Under the pieces are notes generated by a model. The model saw nothing but the letters and a program-made list of their open reading frames with translations, did not search any database and was not told the DNA's origin. A stretch of 33,842 nt of DNA from Saccharicrinis sp. (GTDB lineage Bacteria; Bacteroidota; Bacteroidia; Bacteroidales; Marinilabiliaceae), in NCBI GenBank assembly GCA_024635555.1, contig JAGXIO010000005.1, positions 1 to 33,842 of the forward strand, given 5' to 3'. Below, one piece after another: positions 4,531 to 10,016 of this stretch; positions within the stretch are counted from its first letter, which is position 1, and every line of letters starts with the position of its first letter. Both the position numbers and the translations under genes were made by a program.

Positions 4531-4929
4531 TTGGAATTACGTAATACAGGAAAACTCATCGAAATTAAGAATGAATGGAAAGTATATGAAACGAGCCCCC
4601 GAAGGGTCGGGGCAGGCTATGAGAGTTGCTTCTCACAAAACCTGTCCCGCCTCAGCGGGAGGGGGAATGATTGTAATGGCGAGTTCCCCCGAATCAAGTT
4701 CGGGGCAGGCTATGTGGCAAAAAAATCAATTAGAGTATATGAAAAAGAGGATTTGCAAAACAATGATGCTGATCATAATTTTAACTTTTATCTTATTGTT
4801 GCCTACGCATTAATAATGTTGGTTTTTACTTGGGTTTTTTTGATTATTGTCCATGATTTAAGAAGTCCCTTTAATTCAATTATTGGTTTTAGCACTATTT
4901 TAACCCGTTTTGCACGGTTTGCTCCGTAA
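4531..4929 (+). pseudogene. Sensor histidine kinase fragment interrupted by palindromic repeats
   Basis: The only plus-strand coding trace in the window. The frame holds a membrane-segment-like stretch (FYLIVAYALIMLVFTWVFL) followed by HDLRSPFNSIIGFSTIL at 4852-4902. The latter is an unmistakable HisKA phospho-acceptor H-box with the sequence style of Bacteroidota kinases. No further kinase sequence follows; after 4902 it runs into the transposase side of the insertion. Upstream, the frame is filled by two copies of a GC-rich hairpin repeat (4592-4714) that are unlikely to encode protein. I read it as a decayed remnant, not a gene. It could have belonged to a regulator of a nearby locus, but this is inference. 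Confidence 0.5.
4592..4714. repeat. Pair of GC-rich palindromic repeats with four hairpins
   Basis: The 15-mer TCGGGGCAGGCTATG occurs at 4607-4621 and again at 4700-4714, each time as the right arm of a hairpin. Hairpins: CCCCGA/TCGGGG (4597-4612), TGAGA/TCTCA (4620-4635), TCCCGC/GCGGGA (4645-4660) and CCCCGAA/TTCGGGG (4687-4705). This GC content is far from that of the AT-rich surroundings, which suggests a dispersed mobile-type repeat. Confidence 0.65.
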
Positions 4930-6850
4930 CTTCCTGAAATTAAGTTGAATCATTTTCAAAAATTTCCGCAGGTAGGACTACAGATTTTTTTCTGTAAAAC
5001 GGGACATATTTATAACCCATCAGGTCATATATTTCTTTTTTTTTAGATGTGGGCTCGGTACACTTGCGAACCGATAATACCTGATCGTTGATGTTGGTGA
5101 TATTCGTTGTCACACACTTTTGCGTGTTCATTATCCTTCGGATCTCTCTCCAATCCGAGCAGTAGCCTTTTTGCTTTAGCTGGTATCTGATTGTCGATAC
5201 CAACCAGTAGGCAAGCAGTCCCAAGTGTAAATGTGCCATGGAGGCATCGTCGGTCTTGTGATATATAGGACGCAGGTCGAGGTCTGATTTTAAGACCCGA
5301 AAAGTGCTTTCCACCTCTCTGATTATATTATAAATTAACCATAATGTTTTTTCGTCTTCTCCGTCTAGCGATGTCCTTAAAAAATAGATGCCCGCTTTTT
5401 TGCCAAGGTCCTGACCTTTCTTGTGCTCGCACCTTACCTGTGTGGCCACACCGTTTTTGTCGTCGGAAACTATGATGTGGTAATATTTGTGTACCGATGG
5501 GTATTTCTGTTTCAAACGCCCTATCCTTTGATGTACCCTGTCCAGTTTCTTTGTCCCCCCCTTTTTGTTCAGGGCCGCGTTTATTGTTTGGATACCTTCC
5601 TCGAACCGCTGAGACAGCAACCCGTTCATACTGTTTTCTTTTAAAGCTTTGGCATGGCTTTTCACCCAAAGGTAATTGTCGTCGTTATCCTGGCAGCGTA
5701 CCTTTAAAAGTTCTATCGGCTGATTCTTTTTGTCCTTTATCACAACCGGGTCGCTGTCCGTGTCTGCCCGGTAGTCTTTAAGGTTGGAACGAGAAACGCA
5801 CATATAATCATAGCCCTCGTGTTTTAACATCTCCACGTTGTCGTCGGTGGCAATCCCGGCGTCCATCACCACTATCGGTTTACGGTCTGTAAAGGAAGTT
5901 TGTTTGCTCAATGCTTTTATCACGATTTTCAGGGTTTTGCTGTCGGACATGTTGCCCTCGAAAATGTTGGAATATTTTAAAAAACCTTCGCGGTTAATGA
6001 CCACGGCCAAGACAATCAGCCGGGCATCCCGGCGTTTTTCCTTACTGCGGCCAAACTTGGCCAGCTTGCTCCCTTTCATTTGTCCCTCAAAATAGGTATT
6101 GGTCAGGTCATATAATATTATTTTGTCTTCCAGGTCGAACAGTTCGTTGGTCTGCCGCGAAAGGTATTGTTCCAACTGGTCCTTTACCGCGTACAACTTG
6201 TGCGATATGGCATATAGCCTGTCCTTACCCACATTTCCCCGGTCGAAGCCCGTTAGCTCACAAATGGCGGAGTTCTCTTTTATATAGGAGGCAGTCTTCA
6301 GTTCCGATGCCGGATATACCGCTCTGCTCACGATATGCGTACAGGCCAGCGATATATTTTCTTCGGACCAACCGTCCCCGCGCAAAAAATCGCCTATTTT
6401 CAACTGGTCGAAGGCTTGCTTGCAGAGCCATTCGCCCCCGAGCTCTCTGGCGTCGTTGTTCTTCAGGCTCGACATGTCCACCGTTTCCCATTCATGCTCC
6501 CGGTCGCTAATGTCATAACGTTTTTTCCTTTTTATCTCGTTATAGAAATGGGCGGCAAGTTCTTCTACTTTTTCATCAACTATGTCGAAACCAAGTGTGT
6601 CCGAGCCGTGCTTTATCATCTCTTCCACTCGCTTCCCTAGTTGTTTTATCTGCACCTCGGTGTCCAGCTCCTCCAGTTTCCCGAAACAGATCATGGAACG
6701 GTGTCGGACGTGGCCGTCAATACGGTAACTTTCGCATAAACTGTAAATAGTGTACCGCTGCTTTGTGGTCTTATTATATTTTGAAAATGACTTCACGAAC
6801 ATATCCCAAGTTTACGGCCTAACTTGTTAAATGTCAATACCTGAGGTAGG
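4903..6850 (-). mobile_element. IS1634-type insertion sequence (approximate limits)
   Basis: The left limit is set by the end of histidine-kinase similarity at 4902, and the right limit by the start of low-complexity AT-rich sequence after the transposase start. Both ends carry TTACGG-like sequence in inverted orientation (around 4922-4929 and 6812-6818), but the match is short and imperfect. The boundaries are estimates. Confidence 0.45.
4940..6802 (-). CDS. IS1634-family DDE transposase
   Basis: The 620-residue frame is complete. The DDE triad can be placed: D232 in IILYDLTNTYFEG, D314 in PIVVMDAGIATDD, and E498 in IIREVESTFRVLK, which gives the E(6)K spacing to K505 of IS4-type enzymes. 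The KFGRSKEKRRDARLIVLAVV segment after the first Asp and HLGLLAYWLV after the Glu are typical of the IS1634 group, and the length is in the expected 500-650 range. The N-terminal region (res 1-140) is the usual DNA-binding part. The transposase appears intact and could be active. GC content is higher than in the flanks, consistent with recent arrival. I could not define clean terminal inverted repeats or a target duplication; outer ends are probably near 4903 and 6830-6850. Confidence 0.88.
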   Translation of the reverse strand: MFVKSFSKYNKTTKQRYTIYSLCESYRIDGHVRHRSMICFGKLEELDTEVQIKQLGKRVEEMIKHGSDTLGFDIVDEKVEELAAHFYNEIKRKKRYDISDREHEWETVDMSSLKNNDARELGGEWLCKQAFDQLKIGDFLRGDGWSEENISLACTHIVSRAVYPASELKTASYIKENSAICELTGFDRGNVGKDRLYAISHKLYAVKDQLEQYLSRQTNELFDLEDKIILYDLTNTYFEGQMKGSKLAKFGRSKEKRRDARLIVLAVVINREGFLKYSNIFEGNMSDSKTLKIVIKALSKQTSFTDRKPIVVMDAGIATDDNVEMLKHEGYDYMCVSRSNLKDYRADTDSDPVVIKDKKNQPIELLKVRCQDNDDNYLWVKSHAKALKENSMNGLLSQRFEEGIQTINAALNKKGGTKKLDRVHQRIGRLKQKYPSVHKYYHIIVSDDKNGVATQVRCEHKKGQDLGKKAGIYFLRTSLDGEDEKTLWLIYNIIREVESTFRVLKSDLDLRPIYHKTDDASMAHLHLGLLAYWLVSTIRYQLKQKGYCSDWREIRRIMNTQKCVTTNITNINDQVLSVRKCTEPTSKKKEIYDLMGYKYVPFYRKKSVVLPAEIFENDST

Positions 6851-7616: not shown

Positions 7617-8047
7617 TTACAAATAGATAGCTCTGTAACATAAAGATTTGTTGTTGCCATGTATAGCTAAATAATTAGGAGATAGTAGCGAGTTTACCAT
7701 TTTATTCGCAGCATCCAGATATACCTTTTTTTTAGTTGAGTAGGTAGACAATTTATATAAGGCTGCAGCAGTAATTGCTGCAGCAGAAGCATCTCTTGGA
7801 ATTTCAGGATAGTCTGAAACATCGTAATTCCACTCTGGGATAAAACCCTCATCGTTAACATTGTAATCCCATAACGGAATCATATCTTCAGGAATATTTT
7901 TGTGGTTTACCATATATTTTGCAATGTATTCTCAAATTTGCCGGCAATGTATCAGATTGTATCAAATTGGTCTTTTTCGTTCGTCTTTGTTGTGCAAGCC
8001 GAAAAGAAAACAAGCACATACAAAATACTTAGTAATTGTTTAATTTT
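7617..8047 (-). pseudogene. GH88 unsaturated glucuronyl hydrolase, internally deleted remnant
   Basis: Two pieces of one gene are visible. The 5' piece (8047 down to a TGA at 7952-7954) encodes a lipoprotein signal without its ATG: KIKQLLSILYVLVFFSAC, a clear FSAC lipobox. The 3' piece (7913-7617) carries the GH88 signature IPLWDYNV ... PRDASAAAITAAALYKLS and AANKMVNSLLSPNYL. GH88 enzymes are about 370-420 residues; here about two thirds is missing, including the catalytic aspartates. The frame also ends early after NNKSLCYRAIYL. GH88 removes the 4,5-unsaturated uronate that polysaccharide lyases leave, so it would have completed the pathway begun by the PL8-like lyase upstream. It lies in operon order directly after the last susD, separated by the hairpin array. 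Confidence 0.7.
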
Positions 8048-8205
8048 TAACCTGCCCTATTCATAAATTTTATGAATAAGGCACCAAAGGCCGATTCTGC
8101 CTAGGCAGAATCGAGGGTTAACCCTCGAAAAAGTTTACTTAAACTTTTTCGGCTTTCCGCTTATGATAGCGGAAAGTGAAAAATGCGTGCATTTTTCAGG
8201 TTAAA
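8046..8205. repeat. Chain of six back-to-back hairpins inside a 9-bp outer stem
   Basis: The outer stem is TTTAACCTG (8046-8054) with CAGGTTAAA (8197-8205). Inside it: H1 GCC(C)TATTCATAA with TTATGAATA(A)GGC (8054-8082); H2 a fully self-complementary 22-mer (8092-8113, arms CGATTCTGCC/GGCAGAATCG); H3 a 16-mer CGAGGGTTAACCCTCG (8112-8127); H4 arms CGAAAAAGTTTA/TAAACTTTTTCG (8126-8151); H5 CTTTCCGCT/AGCGGAAAG (8153-8176); H6 TGAAAAATGC/GCATTTTTCA (8177-8198). H2 and H3, and H3 and H4, share a CG dinucleotide, so there is almost no spacer. The only unpaired stretch is 8083-8091. It sits in the 3' untranslated region of the susD at 8274 and abuts codon 2 of the GH88 remnant. Confidence 0.85.
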
Positions 8206-8273
8206 TCATATTAGCGTTTCTCAATCGTAATATTGTAATTATCGCTCAATTCTATTTACAAATCACGAGTAAT

Positions 8274-10016
8274 CTACAATCCCATATTTACTTTAATTTT
8301 TTGAACTGTTTTATTTTGATAATCAGGATTTGCAAAGAATTTTCTGGCGTTTTCATTGTACGGTAAAAACCAGTTTTCAGGATTCTCTGCTTGTGCCCGA
8401 ATTGCAGCTTTCTTTCCTATGGGTGCCGACATTTCAATTTCATCAAGAATATAGCTCCATTGTCCACTACGTTGCATGATTCGAATCAAATCGAACCAGC
8501 GTTTTCCTTCGAAAGCCAGTTCTTTGGCACGTTCTTCCAGTATTAATGTTTCTGGTTCATATTTATCGGTAGGTGAACTATCGGTGGATTTAATGTATTC
8601 TTCCAACAAAACCCGAGATCTTAAGCCATAGGTTGCCACTCCTGCAAAACTTTGATATGTACCTTGCAATTTTCTCACTGCCTCGCCGTAGTTTCCTTCT
8701 CTGTTTAAGGCTTCGCAGTTCATACACAATACTTCTGCCATTCGGTAGGCAATCCAGTTACAATCACTTTCAAAGCCGTTTCTTTTTATGCCATCAGTAC
8801 CATTCACCAAAAACTTAAATATTTGAGGATCAATCCACTTTTTGTTGATGCTATCGTACTGGCCAATAAACGATGCGTTGTAACCTCTCATGATGTCACA
8901 GGTATCAAGCTTATAATCCACTTTTGGATTATAGTATTTATCGTCTTGCCAAAAATCGATGGCTTTTTGTGATGGCCTTACAATGTATCGCCCTCCTTCT
9001 TCTGGTAATAATTCAGTATAAAGTTGAAGTACATTTAAATCAGGTGTACTGGATTGGAAACGTATTTCAAAAATTGTTTCAGGTTTCAGGCTACCTCCAG
9101 CGGTAAAGATATTTATCCAACGTTGAACAGGAACTCCGCCACTGGTAAAACATACAGGTGCCCGTGAGTTATCTCCAAGACTATACTGTAAAGGGTTATA
9201 ATCCAAAATTCTGTTTGTAAGGGTAATTACCTCTTTAAACTTGTTTCTCCACAACTTAATGTCAGCTTGCAGAACAAGATTCGTAATAGCCTTAAAACGA
9301 GAAGAATAAATGGCCGGATTGATTGTACTTTCACTGGAATACTCACTCGGATAAGTGCGTTCAATGCCTTCAACCCGTGCCAATTGAGCTTCAAGTGTAT
9401 CGAGTATTACTTCAGAAAAGGTTGGATCAACAAAATAAACAGGCATTTCTTTCAACTCGTAGGAGCCATCTTTGGCCCAAACGGTATCTATTTTTGTTTG
9501 TTTATAATTCTCGTCAAAGGGCTCCAAAATAAGCGGAACATCGCCAAAGGTTCGCACCAGCCAGAAATAGGTATATGCTCTAACATTGATTGCTTCAGCA
9601 ACGTATTGACTCACTAACTCATCATCGAAATTGTAGTCATTATCAGCCACTTTCGTAGCATACTTTATGATGTAATTTGCTCGGTTGATTACATCGTAAA
9701 ATTCTGACCAGTCGGTAAACCTATTGTTTCCTGAAACGTTGAGATCATTCAACTCCTTAATCTCCCAACTTGCACCGGTACCAGGCCACACCAAATCGCC
9801 ACGTACTTCAGACCACACAAACATTTTTTCAACGCAATCCTGTAAGCCATCGTACATTCCACGTGCGGCATTATCAATATCGTAAGATGAAGTGAAGTTA
9901 TCATCGAGATATATTTTGTCGTTTGGATCAGTAACCAGATATTCTTCACACCCGGACATTAGTACTGCCAACAACATCATAAGTGCAAATAGTGTATACT
10001 TATTCATGGATCTCAT
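8274..10016 (-). CDS. SusD/RagB-like surface glycan-binding lipoprotein (second pair)
   Basis: A full-length 580-residue SusD-like protein. The signal peptide ends in a lipobox (LMSGC, Cys23), so it should be lipidated and surface-exposed. The N-terminal SusD part shows DIDNAARGMYDGLQD and EAINVRAYTYFWLVRTFGDV (the TPR helices with the typical R-A-Y-F-L pattern). The C-terminal RagB part shows NWIAYRMAEVLCMNCEAL, ILEERAKELAFEGKRWFDLI and the closing FLPYNENARKF. SusD proteins cap their SusC transporter and bind oligosaccharide. It starts 29 bp after the stop of the susC at 10046, and the two surely form one complex. An ATG at 10007 (MNKYTLF) is an equally good start. It is the last intact gene of the nine-gene run. 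Confidence 0.93.
   Translation of the reverse strand: MRSMNKYTLFALMMLLAVLMSGCEEYLVTDPNDKIYLDDNFTSSYDIDNAARGMYDGLQDCVEKMFVWSEVRGDLVWPGTGASWEIKELNDLNVSGNNRFTDWSEFYDVINRANYIIKYATKVADNDYNFDDELVSQYVAEAINVRAYTYFWLVRTFGDVPLILEPFDENYKQTKIDTVWAKDGSYELKEMPVYFVDPTFSEVILDTLEAQLARVEGIERTYPSEYSSESTINPAIYSSRFKAITNLVLQADIKLWRNKFKEVITLTNRILDYNPLQYSLGDNSRAPVCFTSGGVPVQRWINIFTAGGSLKPETIFEIRFQSSTPDLNVLQLYTELLPEEGGRYIVRPSQKAIDFWQDDKYYNPKVDYKLDTCDIMRGYNASFIGQYDSINKKWIDPQIFKFLVNGTDGIKRNGFESDCNWIAYRMAEVLCMNCEALNREGNYGEAVRKLQGTYQSFAGVATYGLRSRVLLEEYIKSTDSSPTDKYEPETLILEERAKELAFEGKRWFDLIRIMQRSGQWSYILDEIEMSAPIGKKAAIRAQAENPENWFLPYNENARKFFANPDYQNKTVQKIKVNMGL

Follow-up and report, generated by a model that had tools for sequence, protein, structure and literature searches.

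A 33,842-nt stretch of Saccharicrinis sp. DNA (the window) contained, at 8046–8205 on the minus strand, a 160-bp repeat comprising a complete element (designated family A) and one flanking base outside each copy of its duplicated TTAA, as delimited by its genome copies (alignment A1). The element was probably a non-autonomous MITE of the IS1380 type, having a hairpin-array interior and borrowing an IS1380-family transposase. It was dispersed in the genome, was bordered by a 4-bp duplication, resembled IS1380 of the same genus at its ends, and had covarying hairpins and modular partial copies. IS1380 was taken as the likely helper because the ends of the element matched those of IS1380 in this genus.

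Structure of the element

Nearly all of 8046–8205 was palindromic, with six hairpins of 16–29 nt and a minor one. In the minus-strand orientation of the alignments, these were H1 (20 nt, 8178–8197), H2 (24 nt, 8153–8176, found in both fold and alignment), H3 (26 nt, 8126–8151), H4 (16 nt, 8112–8127, with an internal TTAA at 8118–8121), H5 (22 nt, 8092–8113), the minor hairpin (9 nt, 8083–8091) and H7 (29 nt, 8054–8082). H1 appeared in the fold and had 96.6% of its cells paired among 31 sequences; H3, H5 and H7 were altered on both sides in some copies at 3 of 12, 3 of 10 and 3 of 13 pairs, respectively. One CG was common to H3 and H4 at their junction and another to H4 and H5. The sequences TTTAACCTG (8046) and CAGGTTAAA (8197) were complementary, and the outer stem consisted of the duplicated TTAA (8047–8050 and 8201–8204) plus CCTG/CAGG. 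The left end, CCTGAAAAATGCA (8188–8200, minus strand), lay within H1 and the right end, CCTGCCCTATTCATAAA (8051–8067, plus strand), within H7.

Folding of 8040–8211 gave -73.1 kcal/mol (z -9.2) for the plus-strand RNA, -76.5 (z -11.5) for the minus-strand RNA and -47.3 (z -10.4) for the minus-strand DNA, and in each of the three tests none of 200 dinucleotide shuffles folded as well. The six palindromes of 16–29 nt, two shared CG dinucleotides and complementary ends described in a first-pass annotation were confirmed, and the fold was far beyond chance. The same annotation had proposed 9-bp terminal repeats. The complementary ends were real but were actually a 4-bp target duplication, most often TTAA, and a short inverted repeat, CCTG/CAGG: the agreement of flanking tetranucleotides among copies (see below) indicated that the 9-bp stem was a self-complementary target duplication beside CCTG/CAGG.

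The interior of the element contained no gene. It was located between a SusD gene (8274–10016) and a decayed open frame, IKQLLSILYVLVFFSAC, which begins at the element edge as had been noted, but whose designation as a GH88 remnant was not confirmed by Pfam. No in-frame ATG preceded this frame when the flanks were rejoined with a single TTAA, and Pfam assigned no family to the 98-aa ORF at 7617–7913.

Copies and distribution

The genome of the window (G000) is a draft assembly of 5.33 Mb in 259 contigs. Searching it with the 160-bp element gave 58 matches, which corresponded to 35 distinct family A places; the remaining 23 rows were opposite-strand palindrome matches inside those copies (22) and one copy of a second family. 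Twenty-two of the 35 places covered at least 158 of the 160 bases with 93–100% identity, and several of the less complete copies were cut by contig ends. The flanks of these copies were mutually unrelated. An earlier proposal that this was a mobile or structured element had named its test beforehand, and was supported by the many dispersed copies, their variable flanks and their covarying stems (see below).

In a DNA search of 61 genomes (its own and 60 relatives), matches were obtained in three, all of one genus; thus copies occurred in two further genomes of Saccharicrinis besides that of the window. A covariance model built from 31 copies gave matches in 3 of 9 genomes of the genus and in 4 of 71 genomes of the bacterial family. 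Its sole match outside the genus (L177 in genome G023, 34 bits) read by eye as an element of the second family between two TTAA. A 19-nt core pattern was found in 16 stretches of named genome contigs, three of which were from Saccharicrinis sp. LH_M89. The 160-bp element had no match in plasmid and phage records; a 17-nt end gave seven single matches in viral contigs, none of them paired, and these were taken as chance. An orthologous empty site was sought with one G000 locus in eight genomes, and none was obtained. Among the matches listed in literature searches on IS1380, MITEs, TTAA hairpins and Saccharicrinis repeats, there was no apparent description of these elements.

With a crude gene calling based on ORF length, all 46 copies examined in three genomes lay outside called genes, barring two short overlapping ORFs and end overlaps of up to 23 nt. 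Thirty G000 copies had called genes on either side; these genes were co-directional at 12 copies, counter-directional at 7, divergent at 8 and convergent at 3.

A second family and modular forms

The second family (B) was found through a 27-nt end match. Its layout was TTAA-CCC-hairpins-GGG-TTAA-CCTG-hairpin-CAGG-TTAA, mostly 140–210 bp in length. In G000, 10 of 31 family B matches exceeded 120 of 154 bases. Of the nine genomes in the genus, four had a family B match, G007 among them with two weak ones only.

In family A, the internal TTAA of H4 split the element into two TTAA-CC...GG-TTAA modules, and H4 contained TTAACC/GGTTAA, which repeats the sequence at the edge of the element. Eight fragments of the left part were detected in G000, four ending where the H4 TTAA has its edge (element position 87 or 88) and the others at 36, 44, 61 and 92; a copy in another Saccharicrinis genome (L118 in G006) likewise ended at 88. 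Inner hairpins were lost from L039 and L042. Hairpins were also found alone: H1 in L111 and L114, H7 in L112, and a family B hairpin in L150. The smallest forms were such single hairpins, some 26–35 bp, between target-like tetranucleotides, and the flanks of some old ones did not fit a direct duplication (TTAG/CTAA for L111 and L112, TTAG/CTAT for L150). Joining and loss of modules at shared TTAA sites would explain the partial copies and the lone hairpins.

Hairpin tips varied among copies, as noted at L141 and L122 of family B and L043 of family A: some had extra nested hairpins of the GACTACGTCGAACG or GGCTGCG type and others partly deleted forms, as if tips had been exchanged or lost.

Target duplication

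Flanking tetranucleotides were compared in 57 copies (32 of family A and 25 of family B), hand-picked for the presence of both ends; single hairpins, fragments with one end and copies truncated by a contig end were left out. They were equal in 40 copies, against a mean of 25.1 and a maximum of 36 in 20,000 shuffles. Among the 27 copies with a non-TTAA end, 10 agreed as direct repeats (a count reached by one of 20,000 shuffles), none agreed only as an inverted repeat, and 17 differed. The non-TTAA flanks that tended to recur on both sides were TTAG, CTAA, TTAT, TAAG, ATAA and CTAG, and YTAR fitted 45 of 57 left and 53 of 57 right tetranucleotides. A direct-repeat scan across all offsets revealed nothing clear. 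The 17 of 57 copies with different flanking tetranucleotides speak against an IS1380-type MITE. Two copies scored as disagreeing owing to the anchors (L159 and L071) agreed by eye.

IS1380 elements with matching ends

IS1380 (PF13701) matches were found in 6 of 9 genomes of the genus. In G000, the PF13701 search detected a broken IS1380 (L165, 1359–2655) starting with CCTGAAATATGCA, which shared 12 of 13 bases with the left end of family A; its other-strand end, CCTGCTTAATTCATAAA, shared 14 of 17 with the right end. An intact IS1380 was found in genome G008 (L167, 1353–3037), encoding a 454-aa ORF with 363 bits to NF033539 (cut-off 180) and having CTAG on both sides. Its right end was identical to that of family B (17 of 17 bases) and shared 15 of 17 with that of family A. 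A 287-bp IS1380 remnant with such ends was present in genome G003 (L176). Flanks were unequal at L165 (ATAG/TTAG) and L176 (CTAC/TTAC).

Paired-end scores, computed for facing ends, were 30 for L167, 24 for L165 and 26 for L176. The controls reached at most 16 (28 stretches, including 12 of the 13 named-contig stretches with the 19-nt pattern that were not from LH_M89) and 20 (60 Markov sequences). The other seven IS1380 loci scored at most 16, among them an intact but different IS1380 in G006 (16), and 14 other transposase loci of G000 also scored at most 16. None of the copy-rich genomes yielded an intact helper whose ends matched; L165 was the only IS1380 of G000 with matching ends, in a draft assembly that may lack or collapse others. 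Neither family A nor family B was found in G008, home of the intact IS1380 with matching ends, and G007, with its two weak family B matches, had no IS1380 match. These absences weigh against the IS1380 reading, as do the unequal flanks of L165 and L176, the control-level ends of the intact G006 IS1380 and the lack of an orthologous empty site among the eight genomes searched.

In both L165 and L167 a hairpin was seen between the left end and the transposase gene: CCTGAAAAT...ATTTTCAGG in L165 (1390–1440), which resembled H1 of family A by eye, and CCCTAAAAATA...TATTTTTAGGG in L167 (1380–1440).

Other transposases of G000 were considered as movers and rejected. Four PF01609 loci had no end pair above control; one of them, at 4940–6802 on the minus strand of the window and 1.2 kb from the element, encoded a 620-aa IS1634-family transposase (NF033559, 266 bits) and had no matching end pair. 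A single sub-cut-off match to the IS701-type PF13546 likewise had no end pair above control.

Proposed mode of movement

The three features of a MITE, as defined in the consulted passages of PMC4133298, were all found: many transposase-less copies (35 places, 160 bp), terminal inverted repeats resembling the ends of an intact IS (the outer repeat of family A itself being only CCTG/CAGG, with the IS likeness running further at each end) and bordering target duplications (40 of 57). The IS1380-type ends together with the 4-bp duplication favoured a DDE-type transposase over single-strand transposition. An IS1380 transposase, acting in trans, would recognise the ends CCTG.../...CAGG, excise the element and place it at a TTAA or similar site (in most cases YTAR), the 4 bp of which would become duplicated. 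The interior is a hairpin array of two modules with a common TTAA, which insertion at shared TTAA sites may have joined, and the fold would be retained for the spread of the element rather than for the host at each site.

Conservation of pairing and alternative explanations

In family A, 93.6% of cells were paired among 31 sequences, and both sides were changed at 12 of 68 pairs, compared with 4.4 in shuffled and 3–11 in slid controls. In family B (11 copies including L177), 93.2% of cells were paired, and both sides were changed at 20 of 55 pairs, compared with 6.3 in shuffled and 2–10 in slid controls. Two-sided changes retained pairing in all 8 cases in L177 and in 10 of 11 cases in L159. 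Among the changes in five old G006 copies of family A, 72 of the 95 on one side broke a pair and 14 of the 27 on both sides kept one. Since old single copies lose pairing, it was kept along the lineage and not at each site, and the fold probably serves propagation of the element and not the host at each site.

The strong RNA fold on both strands, the intergenic position of the copies and the covarying stems of both families would also suit a transcribed host element, regulating expression or protecting 3′ ends and mobile only in the past, but such a role is improbable. The 30 copies with genes on both sides showed all four arrangements, eight of them divergent, and the broken pairs in G006 mean that the fold was not maintained in place. 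These observations also argue against the earlier suggestion that the element caps the 3′ end of an operon transcript. Rfam gave no match at gathering score in the window or in seven family B or fragment loci, the best sub-threshold score being 25.9 bits against 76 required. Equally improbable is a REP/REPIN-type element whose single-stranded hairpins would be the route by which a Y1 tyrosine (RAYT) transposase moves it. Passages of PMC3116915 describe REPINs as hairpin-forming, intergenic and rich in compensatory changes too, and G000 had 10 PF01797 matches, several at loci flanked by REP-like palindrome pairs; at L058, L060, L061 and L062, near-identical palindrome pairs were seen on both sides of the Y1 gene, as would be expected of a RAYT with its own REPs. 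However, none of the 10 Y1 loci carried the element, none of the nine scored had an end pair above control, the element has a 4-bp target duplication, and neither the GTAG nor the CGTC tag described for REPs in passages of PMC3733652, nor a complement of either, occurred in 8046–8205.

For the interior only, it is nearly an even question whether the perfect hairpins and paired changes arose by template switching that corrected imperfect palindromes, the fold itself being under no selection, leaving a plain MITE that is mutation-prone inside. Template switching can mimic covariation, and L111 and L023 likely carry its traces: their hairpins were perfect for 12 and 10 bp, respectively, beyond the CCTG...CAGG core into flanking DNA, as it would leave. 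The predominance of broken pairs among singly changed pairs of old copies is also in its favour. On the other hand, correction should erase the internal loops of the family B long stem, and these stayed open, with pairing in 0 of 11 copies at two opposed positions and in 1, 2 and 5 of 11 at three others; the pairing preserved by two-sided changes in L177 and L159 also argues against it. An IS1380-type MITE whose hairpin array is a selected part of the transposon is a more tentative idea. Such a class would spread via folded RNA or single-stranded DNA, REPIN-like but with a DDE transposase, would be present in two genera of this bacterial family, and would grow by joining hairpin modules at common TTAA sites and shrink by losing them. 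The hairpins may act, as folded DNA or RNA, in the propagation of the element itself.

Comparison with known systems

The element is of a known kind, the IS1380-type non-autonomous element, and its unusual part is the hairpin-array interior. With the IS1380 family (NF033539/PF13701), exemplified by L167 of G008, it has in common the terminal repeat CCTGAA..ATTCATAAA and a 4-bp duplication of the YTAR type, but it lacks a transposase gene and has a hairpin interior, and on one side at least the ends of families A and B depart from those of L167 by two or more bases. In passages of PMC10813416, IS1380 serves as the prokaryotic outgroup for piggyBac, whose target is TTAA; the duplicated sequence is TTAA or, in rare cases, a variant such as TTAG, CTAA or TAAA, and the ends of several groups begin with CCC. 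TTAA duplications with rare variants and CCC ends are thus common ground, but piggyBac elements, as these passages present them, are eukaryotic and larger, and the relation runs through IS1380. An IS982-derived MITE of Cardinium (PMC9769881) is similarly short and gene-less, with IS-like ends, target duplications and many copies in one lineage, but it derives from another IS family and its abstract mentions no hairpin-array interior. REPINs, in the passages of PMC3116915, resemble the element in being hairpin-forming intergenic units with compensatory changes and proposed movement in trans; those passages describe no target duplication, whereas the present element has one, with other ends and no GTAG.

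These elements connect a multi-hairpin repeat of bacteria with a transposase of the IS1380/piggyBac type that duplicates TTAA. They also separate two things often confused, pairing kept along an element lineage, as here, and pairing kept at individual insertions. If movement required folding, a DDE transposon would have a dependence on nucleic-acid structure that is otherwise associated with Y1 single-strand elements. The single hairpins would be convenient natural substrates for work on the bacterial relatives of piggyBac.

Other repeats

Another dispersed repeat, containing TCGGGGCAGGCTATG, was observed at 4560–4760 of the window (L161, 886–1045) and also in L009, L044 and L163. TCGGGGCAGGCTATG occurred in 5 of 186 loci, of which L044 and L072 were the same place, and L161 and L163 were 79% identical. 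A 232-bp repeat with 90% identity between two contigs (L160, 2373–2603, and L163, 391–621) was located near PF01609 fragments.
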